Part shown: one piece after another, positions 13,247 to 35,470 of the stretch
Numbering within the stretch: position 1 is the stretch's first letter
Layout of the letters: the number at the start of each line of letters is the position of its first letter
Assembly: GCF_000374405.1 (NCBI RefSeq)
Contig: NZ_KB894217.1
Location: forward strand, 86,619-150,618
Reading direction: 5' to 3'
From: Riemerella columbina DSM 16469
GTDB lineage: Bacteria; Bacteroidota; Bacteroidia; Flavobacteriales; Weeksellaceae
DNA: 64,000 nt
Translations under genes and position numbers: made by a program
Notes under the pieces: model-generated
Seen by the model: only the letters and a program-made list of their open reading frames with translations
Databases searched by the model: none
What the model was told of the DNA's origin: nothing

Positions 13247-13276
13247 ACACATTTATGTAAATCATAATCAATTTAA

Positions 13277-13296
13277 CATAATATAAATTATAGGAT
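13277..13296 (+). repeat. Left attachment repeat (attL core)
   Basis: CATAATATAAATTATAGGAT, identical over 20 bases to 22820-22839; the match ends sharply at both sides. It contains ATAAT...ATTAT arms around a short AT spacer, the kind of symmetry tyrosine recombinases bind. It begins immediately after a TAA (13274-13276) in the frame of the following ORF. Confidence 0.8.
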
Positions 13297-13927
13297 AAAA
13301 AAATATACAAAATATTATAAATCAATATTTTATAAATTATTTGCGTGTTCATTTTTTATCATTTTTAGTATAAAATATTATCATTGTCAATCTTTAGAAA
13401 CTTTACAACAAGATTACAAACAATCTCGTATTGCTACCAATTCCCAGTTAATAAAACTCACATCCGAAAAAAAATCATGGAAATGGTTATCATTATTACC
13501 CACAGTATCAGTTTCTAGCACTTGGGATCCTTTCACACAGGTATATAGACCGACGGTCAATTTTGGAATATCCTTATCCAATTTATCCAATTATATACAA
13601 ACATCAAATCGCAATCGTATTGAGCGCGAAAAACTAGCTATTTCATTACAGGAGCAGCTATCATCACAATTAATCGCTATAGATGCAGAAATTTTAGACT
13701 TAAAAAGAGACTCTATTGCACTTACCTATGAACATAAAAACATCATGCTTTTAGAAGAACTATACACTATAAAATCAAAACAGTATGAGCAAAACCAAAT
13801 CAATTTAGAAGAAAAAATAAGACACCAGATGAATCTTAATAATAGTAAGCATTCATTTGAAATTCGAAAATTAAACTACGAAAACAAGCAGAAAAAATTA
13901 ATCAATAAACTAAAAAAACGCCTATGA
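13277..13927 (+). CDS. Secreted TolC-like coiled-coil protein whose start codon lies at the other end of the element
   Basis: The frame is open from 13277 to TGA 13925-13927 but holds no ATG, GTG or TTG until ATG 13745. The coding character starts far earlier: IKKYTKYYKSIFYKLFACSF is a signal-peptide-like N-terminus, then SLLPTVSVSSTW, RPTVNFGISLSNLSN, and two long coiled-coil helices rich in Lys/Glu/Asn, resembling one half of a TolC-type outer-membrane channel protein. In the circular form the ATG at 22811-22813 reads ATA CAT and through the repeat into this frame, giving MIHHNINYRIKKYTK... and 219 residues. An ATA at 13295 is the only alternative start-like codon. Its stop overlaps the next tiny ORF. 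TolC relation is a structural impression only. Confidence 0.6.
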   Translation, partial: HNINYRIKKYTKYYKSIFYKLFACSFFIIFSIKYYHCQSLETLQQDYKQSRIATNSQLIKLTSEKKSWKWLSLLPTVSVSSTWDPFTQVYRPTVNFGISLSNLSNYIQTSNRNRIEREKLAISLQEQLSSQLIAIDAEILDLKRDSIALTYEHKNIMLLEELYTIKSKQYEQNQINLEEKIRHQMNLNNSKHSFEIRKLNYENKQKKLINKLKKRL

Positions 13928-13995
13928 TGTGGTTAGGCATCGTAAGCGTTTTGAAAAAATTCTATTCTTTATTATGGACAAAAATACAATTTTAA
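13924..13995 (+). CDS. Possible 23-residue hydrophobic peptide
   Basis: ATG at 13924 overlaps the TGA of the preceding frame (ATGA) and reads MMWLGIVSVLKKFYSLLWTK plus three residues to TAA 13993-13995. It is hydrophobic with three Lys, and overlaps the primase start region in another frame. It could be a leader peptide that couples translation of the two large genes, or chance. Only the junction geometry supports it. Confidence 0.3.
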   Translation: MMWLGIVSVLKKFYSLLWTKIQF

Positions 13996-16067
13996 AGCAA
14001 ACAACACAAGTAGAAATTTACAATTATTACTACGGTCATGGCTTCATACCATATACCAAAATATCTTCACCATTTACAGAGGATAAGAACCCCAGTTTCA
14101 AAGTCTTTAAAAATGGTTCTTTCAAATGTTTTAGTACAGGGAAGCAAGGGGATGTTTGGCAATTTGTAGCAGACATTAAAGGCTTAGATTGTAAAACACA
14201 ATTTGCAGAAATATTAAATATAATCTCTAGTGATATGGGAGTTATCAAGGAACAGAAACAAAAAAATATAAATTTTCAGTCTATTAATAATAGTACTGAT
14301 AATAAACACTTTATATATTTTGAAAAACCCTATACTTCCCATAGTTTAGAATTTTGGACACAAGGAAATTGGAATGTTACAAAAGATATTCTAGAAAAAT
14401 ACAATGTCAAAAACCTTGATAAATACGAGTATTATAACTCTAAAAAAAATGCTATACAAAAAATAAAACTTTATTCTGGTATTGTGGGGTTTATTTATAA
14501 AGTCAATGACAATGCCGAAATTTATATCCCTGCACAAGGCAAAAACAAAAAATTCTTTTATAATAACCTTACATTTTCCGATATTTTTGGATACGAACAA
14601 TTAAAAAATAAAGAAGACTATATCATCATTACAGCAGGCAAAAAAGACTGTCTAATACTCAATGCCAATGGCTTTCCCGCCGTATCATTTAGGTCAGAAA
14701 GTGGCTTTATAAAAGAAGAAGAAATACTCAAGCTCAAGCAGAAAACAGACAATATTTACATTTGCTACGACAATGATAAAACAGGCATGGAAACCGCTTT
14801 AAAACTATGCCAGGCCTACTCTATCAAACAAATTATTTTACCCGAAAAATACAACGATATAGCCGACTATTTCCTAGTATACGATAAATCACACTATCAG
14901 AAATTAATACAAGAAATAAGAGAACTAGAAGAAGCCGAAACAAAAAAAGACACTCAAAACACTATATTTCATATCACAGAAGAATATTTATCTACTTACT
15001 ACAAATTCAGATACAATACCATTGCATTAGACATAGAATACTGCAAAAAAACAACCCATGATTGGAAATCACTCAATGAAAATTCCTTGTATTTAGAACT
15101 TCAGAAAAAAGGAATTAAAATCAGTATAAACAACCTCATTGCCATTCTAAAAAGTGAGTTTGTACCCCATTATAACCCTATACAGGAATACTTTGAGAAC
15201 TTACCAAAATGGGACGGTAGAACAGATTATATCAGTAACCTTGCCAATTATGTATACCCTTTGGATAGAGAAAAATTCAATCATCATTTCAAAAAATGGG
15301 CAGTTAGAACAGTTAAATGTGCGCTATTAGAAAGATACTTTAACAAACAAGCCTTCGTTTTAGTACACAAGGCTCAGAACTCAGGTAAAAGTTCTTTTTG
15401 CCGTTTCTTATGCCCACCAGAATTATCCCAATATCTAGCCGAAGATATTAGTAATGATAAAGATGCAAGGATACTATTATGCAAAAATTTCCTTATCAAT
15501 TTAGACGAACTTTCAAGCCTAGCCAAAAAAGAAATCAATACCCTAAAATCCTACTTCTCAAAAGACCAAATCAACGAACGCCTACCCTACGATAGAAAAA
15601 ATAGCATACTACCACGCATTTGCAGTTTTATAGGATCTACCAATAGAGATACATTTTTAGATGATGAAACAGGCTCCGTGCGTTGGTTATGCTTTCAAAT
15701 TACAGGCATCAATTGGAACTACCGTCAAGAGTGCAATATAGATTTATTTTGGTCTCAAGCCTATGCCCTTGCACTAGATGATAGTTTCAATAGCGAAATG
15801 ACATTTGATGAAATCCAAGACAACGAAGATAGAAACAAAAAATACCAAATCCTAAGCACTGAGCAAGAACTCATCGCCAGCAATTACAAACCAGCTCAGG
15901 AAAACGAAGGCGTATTTGTAACCAGTACAGATGTTTTGATAAGGCTATCAGAATTAGGCGTTAGGCTCTCTAGCGTACAGATTGGAAAAGCATTTAATGC
16001 CTTAGGCTTTGAAAGAAAAAAACATAAAACCAAACAAACCTACGGATACTGGGTAAAAGTATTATAA
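13974..16067 (+). CDS. Primase-helicase: CHC2-like, TOPRIM and VapE-type ATPase domains
   Basis: A 697-residue replication protein. Residues ~10-85 resemble the zinc-finger region of DnaG primases (PFTEDKNPSFKVF, FKCFSTGKQGDVWQFVADI), though only one Cys of the finger is evident. Residues ~215-300 form a TOPRIM fold (YIIITAGKKDCLILNANGFPAVSFRSES; DxD in ICYDNDKTG). Residues ~400-600 are a virulence-associated-E type helicase: YFENLPKWDGR, Walker A HKAQNSGKSSF, Walker B FLINLDEL, and FIGSTNRDTFLDDETGSVRWL. The chosen ATG 13974 starts just before the first domain; GTG 13929 would add 15 residues. Such proteins start replication of plasmids and phage satellites; iteron-like repeats follow within 250 bases. 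Probably co-transcribed with the preceding frame. Confidence 0.85.
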   Translation: MDKNTILKQTTQVEIYNYYYGHGFIPYTKISSPFTEDKNPSFKVFKNGSFKCFSTGKQGDVWQFVADIKGLDCKTQFAEILNIISSDMGVIKEQKQKNINFQSINNSTDNKHFIYFEKPYTSHSLEFWTQGNWNVTKDILEKYNVKNLDKYEYYNSKKNAIQKIKLYSGIVGFIYKVNDNAEIYIPAQGKNKKFFYNNLTFSDIFGYEQLKNKEDYIIITAGKKDCLILNANGFPAVSFRSESGFIKEEEILKLKQKTDNIYICYDNDKTGMETALKLCQAYSIKQIILPEKYNDIADYFLVYDKSHYQKLIQEIRELEEAETKKDTQNTIFHITEEYLSTYYKFRYNTIALDIEYCKKTTHDWKSLNENSLYLELQKKGIKISINNLIAILKSEFVPHYNPIQEYFENLPKWDGRTDYISNLANYVYPLDREKFNHHFKKWAVRTVKCALLERYFNKQAFVLVHKAQNSGKSSFCRFLCPPELSQYLAEDISNDKDARILLCKNFLINLDELSSLAKKEINTLKSYFSKDQINERLPYDRKNSILPRICSFIGSTNRDTFLDDETGSVRWLCFQITGINWNYRQECNIDLFWSQAYALALDDSFNSEMTFDEIQDNEDRNKKYQILSTEQELIASNYKPAQENEGVFVTSTDVLIRLSELGVRLSSVQIGKAFNALGFERKKHKTKQTYGYWVKVL

Positions 16068-16085
16068 TATGAAAATATTTCAAAT

Positions 16086-16301
16086 ATGAAACAAGTAGAA
16101 ATTAAAAACGAACTAGAATATATAGATGGTGTCAGAGAAGCACTAGGCTATATATTAGAAGTCATAGATAAGGATACAGATTATCTCTATCACGAAAAAG
16201 AAATCATTAAAAAATTCATACGCTCCGAAATTTGGAAAAACATTTCAGAAAAAGATTTTGATAATTTTTTAAATCAATTACAGCAACAAAAAAATAAATA
16301 A
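16086..16301 (+). CDS. Small acidic helical protein of unknown function
   Basis: 71 residues, strongly charged and helical (MKQVEIKNELEYIDGVREAL ... QQQKNK). It lies 18 bases after the primase-helicase gene and directly before the iteron-like repeats, so it may be a replication accessory or copy-control protein. No family is recognised. Confidence 0.55.
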   Translation: MKQVEIKNELEYIDGVREALGYILEVIDKDTDYLYHEKEIIKKFIRSEIWKNISEKDFDNFLNQLQQQKNK

Positions 16302-16303
16302 CC

Positions 16304-16492
16304 TTACCTAAGTTACCTAATCAGTATAATAAAATGATAATCAGGACAATAATTTTAGGTAAGATAATAAAATAAAGTTACCTAGAAGTTACCTAAGTTA
16401 CCTAATACATGTAGGTAGGTTGGGTAAGTTCAGGTAAGTATAGGTAAGTAGTCTTAGCCCCTATAAATAAAGGCTTTGGTAAGATAGGTAAG
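16304..16492. repeat. Iteron-like array of TTACCTAA / AGGTAAG motifs; candidate origin
   Basis: TTACCT(A)(A) occurs at 16304, 16313, 16378, 16389 and 16398; the complementary AGGTAA at about 16357, 16432, 16442 and 16486, with related GGGTAAG and TGGTAAG at 16422 and 16478. Forward copies dominate the left half and reverse copies the right half. The array fills the gap between the replication genes and the next lipoprotein gene. Iterons next to a primase gene are typical of replication origins; operator function for the genes on either side is the alternative. Confidence 0.6.
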
Positions 16493-16525
16493 ATTTTTTA
16501 GCAAAAACAGTTTAAAAAAAATAAT

Positions 16526-16783
16526 ATGAAAACCAACATCACACTCTTAGCATTAGCAGTATCAGCACTCACTGCCTGTAGTTACAAAAACTATCAACTT
16601 ACCCAAGACGATAGAAAACTACTAAAAAAATACCCCGAAATTATCCTTTTACACTCGGGTAAACAACATATTCTACTAGCCCGTAGATTAGAAATTATAG
16701 ACAGTATCCAGAACGCACATCAGCAGGACTTAGCACAAGAATTTAAAGAAGAGCAATACCATAACAATAGCGAAGACTTTTAA
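16526..16783 (+). CDS. Small putative lipoprotein
   Basis: 85 residues beginning MKTNITLLALAVSALTACSY, a lipoprotein signal with lipobox LTAC at residues 15-18. The mature part is short and charged (LTQDDRKLLKKYPEIILLHSGKQH, then an acidic tail). Its stop TAA shares one base with the ATG of the recombinase-ATPase gene (TAATG), so the two are probably translated together. Function unknown; pairing with a membrane-anchored recombinase is notable. Confidence 0.65.
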   Translation: MKTNITLLALAVSALTACSYKNYQLTQDDRKLLKKYPEIILLHSGKQHILLARRLEIIDSIQNAHQQDLAQEFKEEQYHNNSEDF

Positions 16784-18297
16784 TGCTTATGATTACCATA
16801 GACTACATATCAAAAGAAGAAAGCCTATTACTCATTGAAAAATGCAAAAATCCAAAGTACAAATGCATCATTCTTTTAATGTTAGATTGTGGCTTTAGAG
16901 TATCAGAAACCGTTACACTTAGGCTTAGAAACTTCGATTTTCAAAAAAGAACCATTACAATAAAATCACTCAAAAAGAAAAACGAAGACTATCGTACCAT
17001 ACCCATATCAGACCGTTTATACAGAGCCTTAGCCAACTATTTAGAACAATCCAAAATCCCCATTACACAGCCCGAAAACTACCTATTCCCAAGCTATACC
17101 CACAAAGGGCATCTATGCCGTAAGACTGTTTGGAAAGTCCTTAAGGCCTATGGAAAAAAATTAGGCATACAAAACCTACACCCGCACACGCTTAGGCATA
17201 CCTTTGCCACACATCATCTCAATAACGGGACTAAGTTAGAAGAAATAAAAACCATGCTAGGACATAGTTCATACGATACCACACTTATATATGCTCAGAT
17301 CCCTACCGAACAACTAAGCAAAAAAATAGAAGCCGTTACCACACAAAAAAGAAATTTTTGGGTTAGAGTTAAACATAAATTCTTCCCACCTAAAAAAACA
17401 AAACTTATCAATCTATCGTTCAACAAAAATTATTTTACCATTGGGCGAAATGAAGAATTATCAAAACTCAATGTCAATGCAGAATTAGGAATCAATACCG
17501 TTATCATTGGCGATATAGGCACAGGTAAAACCCACCTTCTAGACAATCTAAAAACAAACAAAAAAATACTAAAATTTGAAGACGATAGAATGGCAAAAAA
17601 ATCCCTTATGTATATGATGTTATACCTATTAAAAGGCGATAAAGAAAATATGTTATCTATGCTCTATGGCGATATTGGTATAGAAGCCGTAGAAAAAAAA
17701 ATACAAAGAGAATCAGCCCTATTCATTTGTGATAAAATTATGACCATCGTAGAACCAAAAGAATACATATTGCTAATAGATAATATTACAGACATTACAG
17801 CCGCTAGTAAAAGAATTATAGAACGCCTTAAAGACACCTTTGTTATCATTTGTGCAGCGCGGTATATCAAAAATAAAAACACCTCATTCCTTTGGAATTT
17901 CGAAAAAATAGAAATCAAAAATCTATCTCGAGAGAACGCCATAAAATTCATTCAGCAAAACTCATTTGGATTAGAAGTAGAATCTTGGGAAGACTTTAGA
18001 AACCACATCTACGAACAAACCAATGGCAACCCTCGTGCAATGGCAGAAATGATAGACCGTTATAGAAAAGAACCATTTTTAACCCTAGATATAGTAAAAA
18101 ACATTAAGCACTCTGGAGCATTACCCGAAATAGATTTTACCTTTATCATTGTTGTATTCTTAGGCATCATCACAGCACTACGCTATGCCAGCAGAGAGCT
18201 AGACGAGCCCGCACTCCGTATGATAGGCTCCGTAGGCCTAATACTACTCATCATCTCACGCCCATTATTCAAAGAACTCAAAAGAAAATTTATTTAA
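16783..18297 (+). CDS. Tyrosine recombinase catalytic domain fused to P-loop ATPase and two C-terminal membrane helices
   Basis: 504 residues in three parts. Residues ~1-180 are a tyrosine recombinase catalytic domain with the full set: Arg39 in CGFRVSE, a Lys-rich beta-hairpin (KSLKKKNEDYR), His135 and Arg138 in HPHTLRHTFA, His161 in LGHSSYDTT and Tyr170 in LIYAQI. The usual N-terminal core-binding domain is absent. Residues ~215-440 are a STAND/AAA-like ATPase: Walker A GDIGTGKT (243-250), Walker B YILLIDN (328-334), and TNGNPRAMAEM. Two hydrophobic helices (~451-468 and ~479-494) follow, with a positive tail. It presumably catalyses integration/excision at the 20-bp repeats. The membrane anchor and ATPase on a recombinase are unusual; no frameshift or join is visible. 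Confidence 0.85.
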   Translation: MLMITIDYISKEESLLLIEKCKNPKYKCIILLMLDCGFRVSETVTLRLRNFDFQKRTITIKSLKKKNEDYRTIPISDRLYRALANYLEQSKIPITQPENYLFPSYTHKGHLCRKTVWKVLKAYGKKLGIQNLHPHTLRHTFATHHLNNGTKLEEIKTMLGHSSYDTTLIYAQIPTEQLSKKIEAVTTQKRNFWVRVKHKFFPPKKTKLINLSFNKNYFTIGRNEELSKLNVNAELGINTVIIGDIGTGKTHLLDNLKTNKKILKFEDDRMAKKSLMYMMLYLLKGDKENMLSMLYGDIGIEAVEKKIQRESALFICDKIMTIVEPKEYILLIDNITDITAASKRIIERLKDTFVIICAARYIKNKNTSFLWNFEKIEIKNLSRENAIKFIQQNSFGLEVESWEDFRNHIYEQTNGNPRAMAEMIDRYRKEPFLTLDIVKNIKHSGALPEIDFTFIIVVFLGIITALRYASRELDEPALRMIGSVGLILLIISRPLFKELKRKFI

Positions 18298-18336
18298 TAT
18301 TTTTTTGTTTCTGTTAATCTTTTAATAATTAATATC

Positions 18337-19737
18337 ATGACAGCACCCAACCACATAGCAGGTGGCATACTATTCACAGGCATATTTACCAGCCTTTGGA
18401 ATGTCAATATATTCTCAAACCCCTACTACCTTGCAGCCACAATATTTGTATCTCTATTGCCCGATATAGACACACCAAAATCCATAATCGGAAAACCCTT
18501 TTACCCCATATCCAAATGGCTCTATCGTCGCTATGGTCATAGGACTATCACACACTCGCTACTCGCAACCGTCATCATCACACTATTAGTCCTTATCTTA
18601 CAAAAATTACAAATCATTCCAGAACACTACGCTTTAATCACATTCTTCGCTTACTTTGGGCATCTATTATTAGATATGCTCACAATCTCTGGTGTTCCCC
18701 TACTCTACCCGTTTTGGCGAAATCCTTGCGTTATCCCTGGTAACCCCACTTACAGATTCAGCACTGGCAACCTAAAGCAAGAAGGTATTTTATTTGTTGT
18801 ATTCCTATGCAGTTCCGCACTTATGAATAACCTATTTACACAAGGCTTTTGGCTTACCTATAACCAACAATTTAACGATATAACCCATGTTTATAGAGAA
18901 TTTACAAAATCAAACAAACTCTACAAAATAGACTACGATTTATACAACTTTCAAAAACCAGTCAAAGGAACAGGCTATTTAGTCTATGCAGATTTCCAGC
19001 AATTATACATCGTATCAAATGATACCATTATAAGATTAAGAGAAGGTCAGCAAGGGCTAAAAATCAATACTCTAAAACCATACAATACCAAACATACACT
19101 CACAACCAAAAGAGTAGAATTTAACCATATTACAGCCGATAGTTTAAATATATTGGTAGATGATAAATTCATATCCTACACCAAAATTACAGCTACAGAA
19201 AAAGCCGATGTTATCACATTAGAAAGAAAACTACACGATTACTATTTTGAACTAAAAAACGAACATAACTTATACTTTTCAAAATCCTTAAAAGACACCC
19301 TAAAAATAGAAACCATAGACCACTCAGAAGCCAATCAGCGTTTGAAATACGAAGAAAATCGCCTAAAAATACAACAGCAAATCCTAGAAAAACAAACCCA
19401 AATCGCTCAAGAAGAAGCCAATATCAAAGCCACAAACGAACCCTATTATAGAGCCTTAGAAGAAATCAAAATAGCCAAACAAAACCTATCCAACGAAACC
19501 GATAGTTACCAAATCAATGAACTAAAAAACCAAATCATAGCACTTCAAAAATACATAGACCATCATACCCCAAAAGACAGCCGTAATCTTGCATTACTCA
19601 AAGTACAACTATCAGGGCTTAATGCCCAACTAAACAAACCATTCAAATACATCAGCAACAAAAAAAATACCCCTAAAAATCCTTTGCTTTTCTCTGGATA
19701 TTTTGATTATTTTGTACTCCCAAATAAAAAACAATGA
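18337..19737 (+). CDS. DUF457/YdjM-like membrane metal-dependent hydrolase with coiled-coil C-terminus
   Basis: 466 residues. The N-terminal ~170 form a membrane domain with the family's histidine/aspartate motifs: MTAPNHIAGG, SLLPDIDTPKS, GHRTITHSLLA and GHLLLDML, expected to bind metal near the membrane. The family includes LexA-regulated YdjM; activity is poorly known. Residues ~335-440 are a long coiled coil (repeated Gln/Glu/Lys heptads), not typical of the short family members, after a beta-rich middle. It follows the recombinase gene by 39 bases and overlaps the nuclease gene by four bases, so the three probably form one operon. Confidence 0.8.
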   Translation: MTAPNHIAGGILFTGIFTSLWNVNIFSNPYYLAATIFVSLLPDIDTPKSIIGKPFYPISKWLYRRYGHRTITHSLLATVIITLLVLILQKLQIIPEHYALITFFAYFGHLLLDMLTISGVPLLYPFWRNPCVIPGNPTYRFSTGNLKQEGILFVVFLCSSALMNNLFTQGFWLTYNQQFNDITHVYREFTKSNKLYKIDYDLYNFQKPVKGTGYLVYADFQQLYIVSNDTIIRLREGQQGLKINTLKPYNTKHTLTTKRVEFNHITADSLNILVDDKFISYTKITATEKADVITLERKLHDYYFELKNEHNLYFSKSLKDTLKIETIDHSEANQRLKYEENRLKIQQQILEKQTQIAQEEANIKATNEPYYRALEEIKIAKQNLSNETDSYQINELKNQIIALQKYIDHHTPKDSRNLALLKVQLSGLNAQLNKPFKYISNKKNTPKNPLLFSGYFDYFVLPNKKQ

Positions 19738-20201
19738 GAGCATTTCTAATTATCTTTTTATTTTATTACGCTATCTTTTTTCCCCAACAAAAAGCCTTCG
19801 TTATAGGCATAAAAGATGGTGATACCATAGTCGTATTAGATAGTTTAAAAAATCAACATACCCTAAGACTTGCCGAAGTAGATTGCCCCGAAAATGGTCA
19901 AGCCTTCGGCAAAAACGCAAAGCAATTTGTATCATTACAAGTATTCAAAAAAAATATAACCTATTACCCTATTAATACAGATAGATACAGGAGAACCATT
20001 GCAAAAGTATATTATGACAATGGTAAATACTTATCCAAAGAAATCATAAAAAACGGCTTCGGTTGGTGGTATTATAAATATTCAGATGATAAGAGTTTAG
20101 GAGAATTACAACAAAAAGCACAACAACAAAAAATAGGTTTATTTTCCGATAAAAATGCTGTGGCTCCTTGGGTATATCGTCAGTATCATCAGCGATTCTA
20201 A
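19734..20201 (+). CDS. Thermonuclease (SNase-fold), probably exported
   Basis: 155 residues: a hydrophobic N-terminal segment (MRAFLIIFLFYYAIFFPQQ) consistent with export, then a staphylococcal-nuclease domain. Catalytic-type residues are Asp30 in KDGDTIV, Arg45 and Glu53 in LRLAEVDCPE, and Arg87 in DRYRRTIAKV, followed by WWYYKYSDD and GLFSDKNAVAPWVYR. The family cuts DNA and RNA with calcium. ATG overlaps the previous stop (ATGA). Export by an element that also encodes a recombinase recalls nucleases carried by conjugative plasmids; role here is unknown. Confidence 0.88.
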   Translation: MRAFLIIFLFYYAIFFPQQKAFVIGIKDGDTIVVLDSLKNQHTLRLAEVDCPENGQAFGKNAKQFVSLQVFKKNITYYPINTDRYRRTIAKVYYDNGKYLSKEIIKNGFGWWYYKYSDDKSLGELQQKAQQQKIGLFSDKNAVAPWVYRQYHQRF

Positions 20202-20492
20202 TTTTTTTTGTTTCTGTATTGCCACGCAGTGCCATATCCCCAGCCATATCCATCCACATATATCGCACTTGCTTCCTATGCAATCATGTATTATATTTTT
20301 TTCTCAAAAAATATAATACACATAGCTTTTTCCAACGCTTACTACTATTCGTCTTCTTATCTTTTTTTCCAAATAAAAATTTATAGTGGGGGTGGGTGGT
20401 AGACGCTTATTTTTTATCTTGTTTTCCCAACCCCCGCCCTGCGGGACGGGGCTTAGGAAACCGCTTCAATAATTTTTTTTATTTTTTTTGAC

Positions 20493-20536
20493 GGCTATAC
20501 CGTCAAAACCATTTATTCCAGTTTCACGGTATAGCC
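20493..20536. repeat. 11-bp inverted repeat GGCTATACCGT with 22-bp spacer
   Basis: GGCTATACCGT at 20493-20503 and ACGGTATAGCC at 20526-20536. It follows a T-tract after the nuclease gene region, so it could be a protein-binding site or an RNA hairpin. Confidence 0.55.
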
Positions 20537-21223
20537 TATTACGGGCGGTTATATGGTGTTCGGTTGTTCGGCGTACCCTGCGGGGTCTACGGCATCTGCA
20601 AGGGTAATAATAAACTCCGCTTTGCTCCGCCCTTGCATATGCCTCCGCCCCTTGTGCACCTCACTGCCCTCATCGCTCCACGTGTCACCGCTTCGCTATT
20701 TTTTTAGAAAAAAAATTGCCACACTCCGCCTATTGGGGCGTGCCGCTTAGTCGGCGCTGATTCCACGACTTTATTTAGTTCGCTTACGCTCCGCTCCAGC
20801 TGGCATCTAAGGTGTTCCCTTCCACTTCCGGTGCTACATCAGCTCCGCTTTGCTCCACCATTCCGCACCTTCAGGCATCGCCTCCACACGCCACTCCGCT
20901 CCCCCGCCCTACTTCCCCACACCATACCCATTCCCTTTCCCTCATCTGGTCGCTCCGCAGTACGCACGCCGGTTATCGCACCGCTTATATATAGGTGTCA
21001 GTGTGCGTGGCTCGACTACGCTCGCTATTTTTATACAGTCTTAGACTTTACGCTAATACATACACTACGCTGATTATCTTTTCCCACCCACCACCCTTTT
21101 GGGTGGTTACTTTCTATTTTGATTTGCTTAAAAAAACTGACACTTATAGGTAACTTAGCGGTATTGACTACCTGAAAAAGCATTTTTCATCCTTTTTGAT
21201 TCGATTGTTTTGTCTACTTTTTT

Positions 21224-21274
21224 GAGGATTGAAAGGGCGACAAAATCGCAATTTCGTCGCTCCTTTCAATCCTC
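21224..21274. repeat. Long near-perfect hairpin
   Basis: GAGGATTGAAAGG(A)GCGAC(A/G)AAAT pairs with its complement over about 24 base pairs, with one bulge, one mismatch and a 3-base loop. It is followed by GTAATTTTAAAAAAAA and lies 80 bases before the lipoprotein gene at 21354. It could be a terminator for a transcript from the GC-rich region, or a single-strand origin-like structure. Confidence 0.65.
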
Positions 21275-21353
21275 GTAATTTTAAAAAAAAACATTTGTTT
21301 TAATTCATTTTAGTATCTATATTACAGGCTCTTAACCATTAATTCTTTTTATT

Positions 21354-22100
21354 ATGAAAAAGCTAATTTTACTTACAGGAATTACACTTACAACTCTAGT
21401 TGCATGTAAAAGAGAAATCCATAATGAAGATAGCGAACTAAAAGAAATTACACCAATCGCTATGTGTGAGAAGACTTACAACACACCTTCTGTCCTTAAT
21501 AAATTCGGTACCCTTATTCGTACCACTTGTAAACCAGGTCCCGGGACTGAAGTTGTTTCACTATCAGCTAATGGTAATAATAGTAAATCTGATTTGATTA
21601 CATTTTCACAACCTTTAAAAACATTAGACAAGGTAAAAACTAAAGCCACCCACTTTTGGTTTTATGGCACAGATTCACAGCAATTATTTAAACCTATTAC
21701 TTACGCTCGTGTATTTGTTTTTGATGAAAACGATCCAAAGGTCAATCTAGCCAAACAACAGATACAAAGCGGAAATCATTATTTAGGATTTGACAGAGGA
21801 ATATTTGAAGGCATATATCCATATGTTGTGCTCAATATTAATCATAGAGAGGTCAATGGTAAAATATACAGTTCTTTTAATCTAGAGAATGAAGTAAAAA
21901 GAAGTTTACCTGTAGGCAAGCGAATTTTTATACAATTCATAGTACAAAAAACGCCAAATGAAGTACCTACATTTGAAAATGCTAAATTCACCTATTGTGA
22001 TTTTGTTAATGAAGATAATAAAGCCTATCCGCATTATAAAATAGACTTATCAGATGCTAATTTAGGTTATCAGGGTTCTTCATTTTACTATGTACAGTAA
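21354..22100 (+). CDS. Putative lipoprotein of unknown function
   Basis: 248 residues starting MKKLILLTGITLTTLVACKR, a lipoprotein signal with lipobox LVAC. The mature part has several Cys (PIAMCEKTYNTP, RTTCKPGPGTE, FTYCDFVNEDN) and looks beta-rich. No family recognised. It is monocistronic: the GC-rich region lies before it and a strong terminator after it. As element cargo it could be a surface protein acting on the host envelope, but nothing in the sequence shows a role. Confidence 0.65.
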   Translation: MKKLILLTGITLTTLVACKREIHNEDSELKEITPIAMCEKTYNTPSVLNKFGTLIRTTCKPGPGTEVVSLSANGNNSKSDLITFSQPLKTLDKVKTKATHFWFYGTDSQQLFKPITYARVFVFDENDPKVNLAKQQIQSGNHYLGFDRGIFEGIYPYVVLNINHREVNGKIYSSFNLENEVKRSLPVGKRIFIQFIVQKTPNEVPTFENAKFTYCDFVNEDNKAYPHYKIDLSDANLGYQGSSFYYVQ

Positions 22101-22117
22101 TGGATTTTTTAGAAATC

Positions 22118-22149
22118 AAAAAAAGACTATCTATTAGATGGTCTTTTTT
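22118..22149 (+). terminator. Terminator after the lipoprotein gene
   Basis: An A-tract, then GACTATCT / AGATGGTC pairing around loop ATT, and T6. It separates the lipoprotein gene from the toxin promoter, which starts three bases later. Confidence 0.75.
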
Positions 22150-22151
22150 AT

Positions 22152-22159
22152 TATATTTG
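22152..22159 (+). promoter_or_regulatory. -7 box of the toxin-like gene
   Basis: TATATTTG, 20 bases before the ATG at 22180. It shows that the toxin-like gene has its own promoter, separate from the antitoxin-like gene on the other strand. Confidence 0.6.
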
Positions 22160-22179
22160 TATCAAAATTGATATAAAAA

Positions 22180-22488
22180 ATGGAACGGGTTATTTTATGG
22201 ACAGATACAGCAAAAAATTCTTTTAATGATAATATAGCATATCTTTTAGAAGATTGGACACAAAAGGAAATAGAGAATTTTATAGACAAAACCGACTCAG
22301 CAATAGAAAATTTGCGTTATCATCCTTATATAGGCAAACCTGTTAGTGGCTATTCAGACTATAGAAACATACTCATTGTACCACAAATTAGTTTAATTTA
22401 TCGTGTAGTAAACACCTATGAAATTCTTTTAATTACTTTTTTCAATAACTATCAAAATCCTTACAAACTAGAGATACTTCTCTCTTAA
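22180..22488 (+). CDS. RelE/ParE-family toxin-like protein
   Basis: 102 residues with the RelE/ParE pattern: WTDTAKNSFNDNIAYLLEDWTQKEIENFIDKTDSAIENLRYHPYIGKPVSGYSDYRNILI, then ISLIYRVVNTYEILLITFFNNYQNP. Members poison ribosomes (RelE) or gyrase (ParE); which applies here cannot be read. Start ATG lies 20 bases after a TATATTTG box. The gene ends overlapping, by 21 bases and tail to tail, the antitoxin-like gene on the minus strand. Most such pairs are co-directional operons, so the convergent layout is odd. It may serve to keep the element in the cell line. Confidence 0.83.
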   Translation: MERVILWTDTAKNSFNDNIAYLLEDWTQKEIENFIDKTDSAIENLRYHPYIGKPVSGYSDYRNILIVPQISLIYRVVNTYEILLITFFNNYQNPYKLEILLS

Positions 22489-22764
22489 GTCTTTCATGTA
22501 CTCTCTATGTTCTTGTACTCTTCCATTTTTGTAATCAGCTTCCGCTTTTTCTATTTCATATAGAAGAGCTTCCTGTGGTTTGAGCAATGTAAGTATTTTT
22601 AATACTTCATCAGGTGTAAAAGTTAGAGACTTTAACTTTCTATAAAAAGTTGGTGCTGGTATCCCTACTTGCTCAATAATATATGTTTTTTTAAATGGGC
22701 TTTTATCCAATAGTCCTTCAATACCATCAAGCACATTTTTATATGCAATAACTTCTTGTATCAT
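22468..22764 (-). CDS. Antitoxin-like HTH protein, convergent with toxin
   Basis: 98 residues. The middle, TYIIEQVGIPAPTFYRKLKSLTFTPDEVLKIL, looks like a Cro/XRE helix-turn-helix. The C-terminal tail ADYKNGRVQEHREYMKDLREKYL resembles toxin-binding ends of RelB/ParD-type antitoxins (GRV..H.E). Its promoter is the minus-strand TATATTTG at 22793-22800, half of a 19-bp palindrome that also carries the outward plus-strand promoter. It probably represses itself at that palindrome, and so could also control the outward promoter. Assignment as antitoxin rests on the motif and its toxin neighbour. Confidence 0.7.
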   Translation of the reverse strand: MIQEVIAYKNVLDGIEGLLDKSPFKKTYIIEQVGIPAPTFYRKLKSLTFTPDEVLKILTLLKPQEALLYEIEKAEADYKNGRVQEHREYMKDLREKYL

Positions 22765-22781
22765 ATTTGAAATATTTTTAT

Positions 22782-22800
22782 TATATTTGTTGCAAATATA
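22782..22800. promoter_or_regulatory. Palindrome holding two divergent -7 boxes: antitoxin and outward junction promoter
   Basis: TATATTTG TTG CAAATATA: an 8-base inverted repeat with 3-base centre. The plus-strand TATATTTG (22782-22789) has a TTG at 22756-22758 as possible -33, spacer 23, and points to ATG 22811 and out across the right repeat. The minus-strand TATATTTG (22793-22800) serves the antitoxin-like gene starting at 22764. One bound dimer would control both directions. Confidence 0.65.
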
Positions 22801-22810
22801 CGAATTAAAA

Positions 22811-22852
22811 ATGATACATCATAATATAAATTATAGGATTTTTATTAAATAA
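22811..22852 (+). other. Outward start codon crossing attR; first codons of the circular-form gene
   Basis: ATG at 22811 reads ATA CAT and enters the right repeat at 22820 in the same codon phase as the ORF after the left repeat. In the integrated state it gives only 13 residues (MIHHNINYRIFIK) to TAA 22850-22852. In the joined circle it would continue into the 13297-13927 frame and form a 219-residue protein. Leader from the -7 box is 21 bases. Confidence 0.65.
22820..22839 (+). repeat. Right attachment repeat (attR core)
   Basis: Exact copy of the 20-bp repeat at 13277-13296. To its right, host sequence leads at once into the pncA-side terminator; to its left is the element's outward promoter and ATG. 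Confidence 0.8.
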
Positions 22853-33888: not shown

Positions 33889-35367
33889 TTATTTACCAAT
33901 CTTCTCTTTAAGTTCTTTAACATAAGTTCTTATTTCTTTATTAACCTCAGTACCACCTTTAATGGTTTGGCAAGCGTGCATTACCGTAGCATGGTCTTTA
34001 CCCCCCATTTCTTTTCCAATTTTGGCATAAGTAGCTTCGGTATATTCTTTAGCAAAATACATGGCGAGTTGTCTTGGTAGCGCAATTTCTCTTTTTCGTG
34101 TTTTAGATAATAACTGCTCTCTTTTTAATCCAAAATACTCACAAACCACCTCTTGGATATAAGGAATATTGATTTCTTTTTTCTGGTTTTTAGCAATTTT
34201 CTTGATGGTTTCTTTTAATAAATCTAATGTTAAATCAGACTTATAAATCGTAGAATAAGCAATCACGGCATTAATTACCCCAATTAATTCTCTCACATTG
34301 GACTGAACCTCACCCGCTAAGAAATCTATCATATCCTCGCTAAGGACAATACCATCTCTATTGAGTTTATCTTCGATAATTTTTCTTCTTGTGTCATAAT
34401 CTGGCGATTTGATTTCCGCAGAGAGTCCCCATTTAAAACGAGAAACCACACGCTCTTCAATATCCATAATATCCGCCGGTGCCTTATCCGAAGTTAAGAT
34501 AATCTGCTTACCATTTTGATGCAGATAATCAAAAATATGGAAGAACGATTCTTGAGTTGCTTTTTTACCCGATAAAAACTGAATATCATCTACAATTAAG
34601 ACATCTAGCATTTTATAAAAATTAGCAAAGTCCTCTCTACTACTAGAGTTTCCACGAGTGGTACTTGCCGCCTTTACAAATTGCTGAATGAATTTCTCTG
34701 ATGATAAATAATGTACAATTTTTTCTGGATAAGCAGTTTTAATTTCCAAACCGATAGCCTGCGCAATATGCGTTTTCCCTACACCTACGCCTCCATGAAT
34801 AAACATTGGGTTAAATGAGGTTTCACCAGGTCTTTTAGCGATAATTTTAGCCGCAGAATAAGCAAATTTATTACTCTCTCCTTCTACAAAATTATCAAAC
34901 GAGTGCACTGGATTAAGATTAGATTCCACAGGGACTTTTTTAATACCAGGCATCACCAAAGGATTTTGGATTTTCCCATGGATTTGAGGCATTACTTCTT
35001 GTGTTTTAATCTCTTGTGGCTTAGGTGTTGGAACGGTATTCCCTTTGATGTTTTGGTTGGTAGGGTTTTCCGTAGGTATCGCTTTACCATTTAAAATTAA
35101 ATAGTATAATTTCACTCGTTTTCCAATATATTTTTTAAGTGCAGAGGATAATAAAGCAATATAATTCTCCTCAATATACTCCTTATAAAAATTACTCGGT
35201 ACCCCAAGGGTTAAACTATTTTCAACCAACGATATCGGCTGTACTTTATCAAACAACAAATGGAATGAGTCTTCCAATTTACCCAAATCTTCAGTTTCAT
35301 TAGCATTTAAATTGTCTTTCATAAACTGAAGACATTTTTGCCAGATATTGAGTAAATCGTGTTCCAT
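33889..35367 (-). CDS. dnaA: Chromosomal replication initiator DnaA
   Basis: 492 residues. Domain I (~1-85, WQKCLQFMKDNLNANETED), a Pro/Gln-rich linker, then the AAA+ domain with FVEGESNKFAYSAA, Walker A GGVGVGKTHIAQAIG and Walker B LIVDDIQFLSGK, and domain IV with the DNA-binding signature YTEATYAKIGKEMGGKDHATVMHA. I use ATG 35365-35367 (MEHDLLNIW); the frame to 35415 adds a poly-basic stretch not found in the family. I saw no cluster of DnaA boxes next to the gene, so the origin is not placed here. Confidence 0.96.
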   Translation of the reverse strand: MEHDLLNIWQKCLQFMKDNLNANETEDLGKLEDSFHLLFDKVQPISLVENSLTLGVPSNFYKEYIEENYIALLSSALKKYIGKRVKLYYLILNGKAIPTENPTNQNIKGNTVPTPKPQEIKTQEVMPQIHGKIQNPLVMPGIKKVPVESNLNPVHSFDNFVEGESNKFAYSAAKIIAKRPGETSFNPMFIHGGVGVGKTHIAQAIGLEIKTAYPEKIVHYLSSEKFIQQFVKAASTTRGNSSSREDFANFYKMLDVLIVDDIQFLSGKKATQESFFHIFDYLHQNGKQIILTSDKAPADIMDIEERVVSRFKWGLSAEIKSPDYDTRRKIIEDKLNRDGIVLSEDMIDFLAGEVQSNVRELIGVINAVIAYSTIYKSDLTLDLLKETIKKIAKNQKKEINIPYIQEVVCEYFGLKREQLLSKTRKREIALPRQLAMYFAKEYTEATYAKIGKEMGGKDHATVMHACQTIKGGTEVNKEIRTYVKELKEKIGK

Positions 35368-35470
35368 AATATTTGATGTTTTTTGTAATTTTTTTTGAGA
35401 AGAATTAGAACGCAAATATCCAAGATTTAATTCAAAAAAAAAAATGTTTGCACTCTTGATTTTTTAGAAA

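Follow-up and report, generated by a model that had tools for sequence, protein, structure and literature searches.

Gene content of the element

The window (the whole stretch of DNA analysed, 64,000 nucleotides long) contains on its forward strand a single open frame of 504 amino acids (16783-18297), with zero internal stops, that joins a tyrosine recombinase catalytic domain to an ATPase and a membrane hairpin. This gene is the sole recombinase gene of an element of 9.54 kb (13271-22841) whose position, as comparison with sister genomes shows, is exactly the host dif site, a context missed by the sequence-only reading of this DNA that preceded our analysis. Neither the ORF list nor Pfam revealed a second recombinase among the ORFs of the element.

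Along the forward strand, the element encodes a half-length TolC/OEP-like envelope protein (open frame 13286-13926; Pfam OEP, 24.3 bits for a cut-off of 22), a CHC2 zinc finger-Toprim-VapE primase/helicase (13929-16067; Pfam VapE-like 9e-28, Zn_ribbon_DnaG 1.7e-8, and Toprim), a small ORF with no Pfam match over cut-off (16086-16301), a small lipoprotein with the lipobox LTAC (16526-16783), the fusion, a YdjM membrane metal-dependent hydrolase carrying C-terminal strands and an MFP-like coiled-coil hairpin (18337-19737; Pfam YdjM 3.5e-29), and a secreted staphylococcal-nuclease-like DNase (19734-20201; Pfam SNase 4e-21). They are followed by a GC-rich non-coding block (20400-21100; 55% GC versus ~33% around it), a lipoprotein with zero Pfam or PHROGs matches (21354-22100, forward strand), a RelE/ParE-like toxin matching phrog_2455 (22180-22488, forward strand) and, facing it, a putative antitoxin (22468-22764, reverse strand), the last two within a block common to the sister genome G003. 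Pfam detected no relaxase and no VirB4/VirD4 set among the proteins of the element, which is thus not of the conjugative/T4SS class, and the element in the window encodes no DNA translocase. The GC-rich block had zero Rfam matches and did not align with a similar GC-rich block in the Olivibacter element (L022 11300-12200), so that an RNA or replication-origin meaning was dropped.

The half-TolC frame is kept in G003 with changes at the three codon positions of 22/12/47, a third-position bias that indicates purifying selection between the two genomes. It has no ATG, GTG or TTG before 13745 in the window and likewise lacks an early start in G003; its counterpart at locus L021 (genome G037) has an ATG. 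The window frame may use a non-canonical start or a start within the att region. The small lipoprotein gene had been described as coupled to the fusion. This holds for the window, where the two genes overlap by 1 base, and does not extend to the relatives: the two genes are separated by a few bases in G003 and by ~10 in L021, the only places where homologues of the lipoprotein were found, and the gene is missing in Olivibacter. The related suggestion of an envelope-spanning complex survives through other genes, those for YdjM with its MFP-like part and for the half-TolC, and not through the lipoprotein, which is restricted to the closest relatives.

Domain architecture of the fusion protein

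Motif and profile comparisons show that the protein encoded at 16783-18297 consists of a complete Xer-like catalytic domain without a core-binding domain (residues 11-183), a linker, a minimal STAND ATPase (~220-430) and a two-helix membrane hairpin (~452-496). The Pfam family Phage_integrase matches residues 11-173 (4.5e-37), covering the entire catalytic domain, and the solved structures nearest in sequence are archaeal XerC-like/XerA and bacterial XerD. The sequence-only reading had listed Arg39, His135, Arg138, His161 and Tyr170 as a full catalytic set; these residues and K64, the beta-hairpin lysine which that reading did not name, do not vary among nine full-length relatives, the most distant at 35-37% identity, and the protein thus displays the R-K-H-R-H-Y signature of tyrosine recombinases in a catalytic-domain fold. 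The N-terminal core-binding (SAM-like) domain of Xer/lambda-type recombinases is missing in all ten fusions. Just 6-38 residues lie upstream of their catalytic domain, versus 117-189 in stand-alone integrases from plasmids with an unfused ATPase, and the absence already claimed for the window is therefore genuine. A recombinase lacking this domain is in itself no novelty, since FimB/FimE-type invertases are single-domain tyrosine recombinases of that kind; invertase models match the fusion weakly.

Residues 222-422 gave weak matches to AAA_22 (8.7e-4) and ATPase_2 (1.6e-3), both under the Pfam curated cut-offs. The Walker A motif (G246xGK249), A359-R360 and G415xP417 are unchanged across the nine full-length relatives; the last two agree with the hhhToR-like and GxP motifs that mark STAND NTPases, and by its Walker A, arginine and GxP motifs the protein belongs to that class. 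An AF2 model (pLDDT 57, low confidence), built like that of YdjM on a three-row alignment and, both models being poor, used for segment order and Foldseek only, contains the catalytic domain, the NTPase and two C-terminal helices (452-469 and 476-496). In Foldseek searches with this low-confidence model, the front part resembled XerA (1.1e-9), XerD and XerH, and the ATPase part the STAND NTPases Sr35, CED-4 and archaeal PABY2304; a winged helix in the STAND part is implied solely by the same low-confidence model. The combination of an ATPase and two membrane helices in one frame, as first read from the sequence, was thus confirmed by the frame, the motifs and the AF2/Foldseek results. The C-terminal hairpin carries the signature [RK][YF]xxxGxGDxxLYxxGG, or a near variant, that is common to stand-alone ATPases of Proteobacteria, Thermus, cyanobacteria, Fusobacteriota and Thermococcus.

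Distribution and origin of the fusion

Ten fusion records were found, distributed in the phyla Bacteroidota and Spirochaetota. Beyond the window, they come from G003 (96% identity), G037 (locus L021, 78%), Olivibacter and the Flavobacterium plasmid pA5BP1 (53% each) and, at 34-37% identity, two Haliscomenobacter plasmids, Spirosoma, Flammeovirga and Thiospirochaeta, where the gene spans the origin of its record. All ten form one clade in the catalytic-domain tree (support 99/99), which shows a single origin of the fusion. The frameshift named in the sequence-only reading as a possible refutation left no trace in the intact frame, and an assembly frameshift is excluded because the same fusion recurs at 96%, 78%, 53% and 34-37% identity. 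The idea that an integrase and an ATPase gene were joined by chance or by assembly, in favour of which we found nothing, is refuted by these conserved fusions, shared by ten records, two phyla and one clade, and its probability is practically negligible. Nor are the two parts always separate proteins in relatives, since the fusion is kept in the ten records; in the wider ATPase family the enzyme stands alone. The ATPase is rare: it occurs in 3 of 323 genomes of the family, always as the fusion, in 1 of 395 genomes of the class, and in 4 of 396 genomes of the phylum, 3 of these unfused.

Integration in dif

Blastn against G003 found homology confined to one discrete block (window 13271-22838), beyond which the flanks are unrelated. 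At its left end, attL (13271-13298, forward strand) is an intact dif site (ATTTAACATAA TATAAA TTATAGGATAA; 0 mismatches, chance 0.00). At the right end, attR (22814-22841, forward strand) is dif-like (ATACATCATAA TATAAA TTATAGGATTT), with the centre and the XerC arm conserved and the XerD-side arm divergent. The two sites form a direct repeat at the element ends (chance 0.00), and dif repeats also flank the G003 element. A single perfect dif copy exists in each of four sister genomes without the fusion; the copy in G004 represents the empty site, because its two sides run into sequence matching both outer flanks of the G003 element. Across the family, 56 of 60 genomes have the site, mostly as a single copy. 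The position antipodal to dnaA failed as a test of dif, since in G003, G004 and G005 a distance of 0.19-0.31 Mb separates dnaA from the site, and sampled GC skew was therefore used for its placement: the skew peaks near the site in G004 and, in G005, flips sign in the interval 1.234-1.336 Mb, which includes the site (1.299 Mb). One arm of the repeat is identical to the XerD arm of E. coli. We name the repeat dif because of its once-per-genome occurrence, the empty site, the change in GC skew and the XerD arm.

The same location recurs in all chromosomal fusion copies sampled. In Olivibacter, which belongs to a different order, the element has an identical dif core on both sides (L022 4226 and 13711), and the G037 element has its left end at dif on a contig that stops before the right end. 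The fusion-carrying plasmids yielded no convincing dif-like site; pA5BP1 has just a weak 11-8-11 site, near chance. With its position at dif and dif-like sites at both ends, the window element is an IMEX by location.

Two side observations concern the surroundings of dif in these genomes. The dnaA gene of the window (33889-35415, reverse strand; G000:C1:120516-121892) lies 11-20 kb from the integrated element, and the distances of 0.19-0.31 Mb in the three sister genomes indicate that dnaA is closer to the terminus than expected in this genus. The end of the element with the toxin and antitoxin genes (window 22143-22830) is found in G005 (L061 15172-15861) without the fusion, ~16 kb from the dif site of that genome and with no recognisable att copy.

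A putative envelope module carried by plasmids

The ATPase half of the fusion is a fused version of a membrane STAND ATPase that elsewhere stands alone, on plasmids without a relaxase in several diderm phyla and in Thermococcus, and that belongs to a plasmid module. A Methylobacter plasmid carries three genes in a row, for a TolC-like protein, an unfused ATPase with this hairpin, and YdjM. Tblastn with the Methylobacter ATPase retrieved 50 plasmids, 49 of them typed non-mobilizable, and YdjM relatives occurred on 34 plasmids, all 34 non-mobilizable. ATPase and YdjM genes are adjacent or a few genes apart in Nitrosococcus, Allochromatium, Methylobacter, Thermus, Desulfocapsa, Fusobacteriota and Thermococcus, and also in the cyanobacteria Synechocystis, Nostoc, Synechococcus and Calothrix; at the loci examined, the module sits on plasmids or integrated elements. 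The half-TolC is present in Bacteroidota, Spirochaetota, Proteobacteria, Desulfocapsa, Fusobacteriota and Thermus, and none was recognised at the examined cyanobacterial and archaeal loci. These gene neighbourhoods show a conserved association of ATPase, YdjM and usually half-TolC.

The half-TolC proteins (~157-307 amino acids) have a single OEP stretch and lack the two tandem repeats per chain of TolC. Many fall below the Pfam cut-off, which is passed by the window protein and by that of Thermus (38.2 bits), where a gene in the module is annotated as TolC family; a profile of them found CmeC (6e-5) and OprM as best matches in the PDB. In Thermus, in the Bacteroidota G264 and G344, and in G323, YdjM extends into two lipoyl-like halves flanking a coiled coil, a layout reminiscent of HlyD-type adaptors; the Thermus homologue has sub-threshold Pfam matches to Biotin_lipoyl_2 and HlyD_3, and there was also a weak match to MacA. 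A separate lipoyl-like protein adjoins YdjM in cyanobacteria. For the window YdjM, the AF2 model places a coiled coil (330-432, pLDDT 68-92) between strands, within a poor model overall.

DNA motors were seen in cyanobacterial versions of the module only: in three cyanobacterial plasmids, the protein right after ATPase-YdjM has TrwB/DUF87 matches over cut-off. These TrwB/HerA-like translocases lie at L037 6397-7470, L144 4896-5978 and L145 5820-6932, and include that of Synechocystis pSYSX. Genomes G264 and G344 have the STAND ATPase flanked by a large serine recombinase and a RadA/Sms-like ATPase (L048 5374-9188 and L049 5478-9282). A separate tyrosine recombinase lies directly upstream of the module in Desulfocapsa. 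A viral origin was rejected, as IMG/VR scans yielded no relatives of the fusion or of YdjM and phage records no relatives of the ATPase. The module did not correspond to a known defence system either, PADLOC giving generic P-loop or nuclease matches only.

Discussion

We favour, with a confidence only a little above even, the view that the ORF is the integrase of a dif element, derived by an ancestral fusion to the ATPase of an envelope module, and that it works as follows. The ATPase would be anchored by its hairpin in the inner membrane beside YdjM, and the half-TolC, together with YdjM and the MFP-like part extending it, would bridge the periplasm and the outer membrane. The recombinase would be tethered because the fused ATPase would sit next to YdjM and this conduit, a membrane position that we expect in vivo. 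The STAND domain, oligomeric in its ATP-bound form, would gather recombinase domains at the membrane and assemble the synapse, so that recombination may be gated by ATP and oligomerisation, close to the energy-dependent or sensor-gated recombination raised in the sequence-only reading. The recombinase domains would then join attP, with its divergent XerD-side arm, to the chromosomal dif, alone or with host XerC/XerD; the fused recombinase rather than host XerCD is likely to act there. By analogy, the fusion would play for the element the part that membrane-bound FtsK plays for XerCD. The substrate of the envelope complex is probably DNA, and in moving that of the element the complex would link recombination to transfer. 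The plasmid fusions without a convincing dif-like site, the lack of a DNA translocase and of a relaxase in the window element, the low OEP scores of many half-TolC proteins and the MFP call in the window, which comes from a poor AF2 model and from sub-threshold Pfam matches in a Thermus homologue, count against this explanation, as do the host's own XerD-like (325 bits) and XerC-like (232 bits) proteins, which could carry out the integration.

Typical IMEXs use host XerC/XerD, and an ordinary IMEX of this kind, in which the host enzymes integrate the element at dif and the fusion has a different task, for example the resolution of multimers of the free plasmid or DNA inversion, is a real if tentative possibility. 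The host encodes the XerD and XerC homologues that this would need, fusions occur also on free plasmids without a clear dif-like site, and large plasmids commonly have resolution recombinases of their own (PMC5357621). The attR, with its conserved centre and XerC arm and its divergent XerD arm, also resembles those of GGI and TLCphi (PMC5357621). However, every sampled chromosomal fusion copy is at dif, and modules without a fused recombinase have another one, large serine in G264 and G344 or tyrosine in Desulfocapsa, which suggests that the fused domain is the element's own recombinase. We consider it rather unlikely that the fused domain is instead an activator or partner of host XerC/XerD, as XafT is for TLCphi (PMC9765430). 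In that case it would attach to one arm of the divergent attP or to host Xer, and the trigger role of FtsK would fall to the membrane ATPase. The missing DNA clamp, the complete catalytic site, the membrane ATPase context and the divergent XerD arm of attR would all suit such a role, but the conservation of the catalytic tyrosine and of the rest of the catalytic set suggests that the domain cleaves DNA itself, and FimB-type recombinases function without a core-binding domain.

What the module carries is a related question. We interpret it as a probable machine spanning the envelope, to which the recombinase is tethered and of which DNA is a possible substrate. That it exports a small molecule, a peptide or a protein, or serves defence or exclusion, with no DNA transport, is a serious contender to which we give somewhat less than even chances: efflux systems and T1SS typically have TolC-like and MFP-like parts, STAND ATPases often serve in immunity, YdjM is predicted to be a hydrolase, and a DNA motor is absent at most loci. 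Nevertheless, there is no ABC/RND pump domain, PADLOC gave no specific family match, the examined loci are plasmids or integrated elements, and a TrwB/HerA-like ATPase and secreted DNases recur nearby. More speculative, and in our opinion improbable, is a relaxase-independent plasmid transfer machine made of the STAND ATPase, YdjM as hydrolase or adaptor, the half-TolC and, in cyanobacteria, the HerA/TrwB-like motor; the fusion of the ATPase to a recombinase in Bacteroidota and Spirochaetota would then allow DNA crossing the envelope to enter or leave dif by recombination at the membrane.

Among known systems, XerA, XerD and XerH share with the fusion the active-site-complete catalytic domain, as best matches in sequence and fold, and the element lies at dif; the fusion differs by lacking the core-binding domain and by adding the STAND ATPase and membrane hairpin. 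FimB/FimE, in contrast, are unfused and act on invertible promoters, not on dif-integrated elements. The IMEXs GGI, TLCphi and LME-1 also lie at dif, and GGI and TLCphi likewise combine an intact dif with a second site whose XerD-side arm diverges (PMC5357621; PMC9765430). IMEXs are defined by their use of host Xer, whereas the window element brings an Xer-like recombinase of its own, joined to a membrane ATPase. The proposed membrane modules of pT26-2 archaeal plasmids, where membrane proteins and an ATPase would form a DNA or protein transfer system (PMC6972569), offer an analogy only, as their ATPase is HerA/VirB4-like and homology to the present module is not evident. Type I secretion and tripartite efflux (TolC-MFP-ABC/RND) have TolC-like and MFP-like components as well, but the module has a half-length TolC, an MFP-like part fused to YdjM, and a STAND ATPase in place of ABC/RND.

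Xer recombination at dif is normally triggered by a separate membrane-bound ATPase, FtsK. FtsK-XerCD is thus alike, by analogy, in that a membrane-anchored ATPase meets an Xer recombinase at dif, but in our case the ATPase is a STAND NTPase and not an FtsK/HerA translocase, the link is covalent, and the coupling is putative. Recombinase and membrane ATPase are here one polypeptide, on an element living in dif, and spatial and ATP control of site-specific recombination therefore becomes directly testable. Searches of open-access literature turned up no paper that describes the fusion or the module; the gene set, on relaxase-less plasmids of diderm bacteria and in its ATPase-YdjM form in an archaeon, appears to be undescribed. 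The ATPase points to a gene set that may bear on how relaxase-less plasmids spread.

Secreted DNases are frequent companions of the module in many phyla. They are of SNase type (window 19734-20201; L036, L039, L040, L050 and L145), DNA/RNA non-specific endonucleases (L029 and L031) or Endonuclease I-like proteins (L050 and L051). The secreted DNases might degrade competing or incoming DNA.
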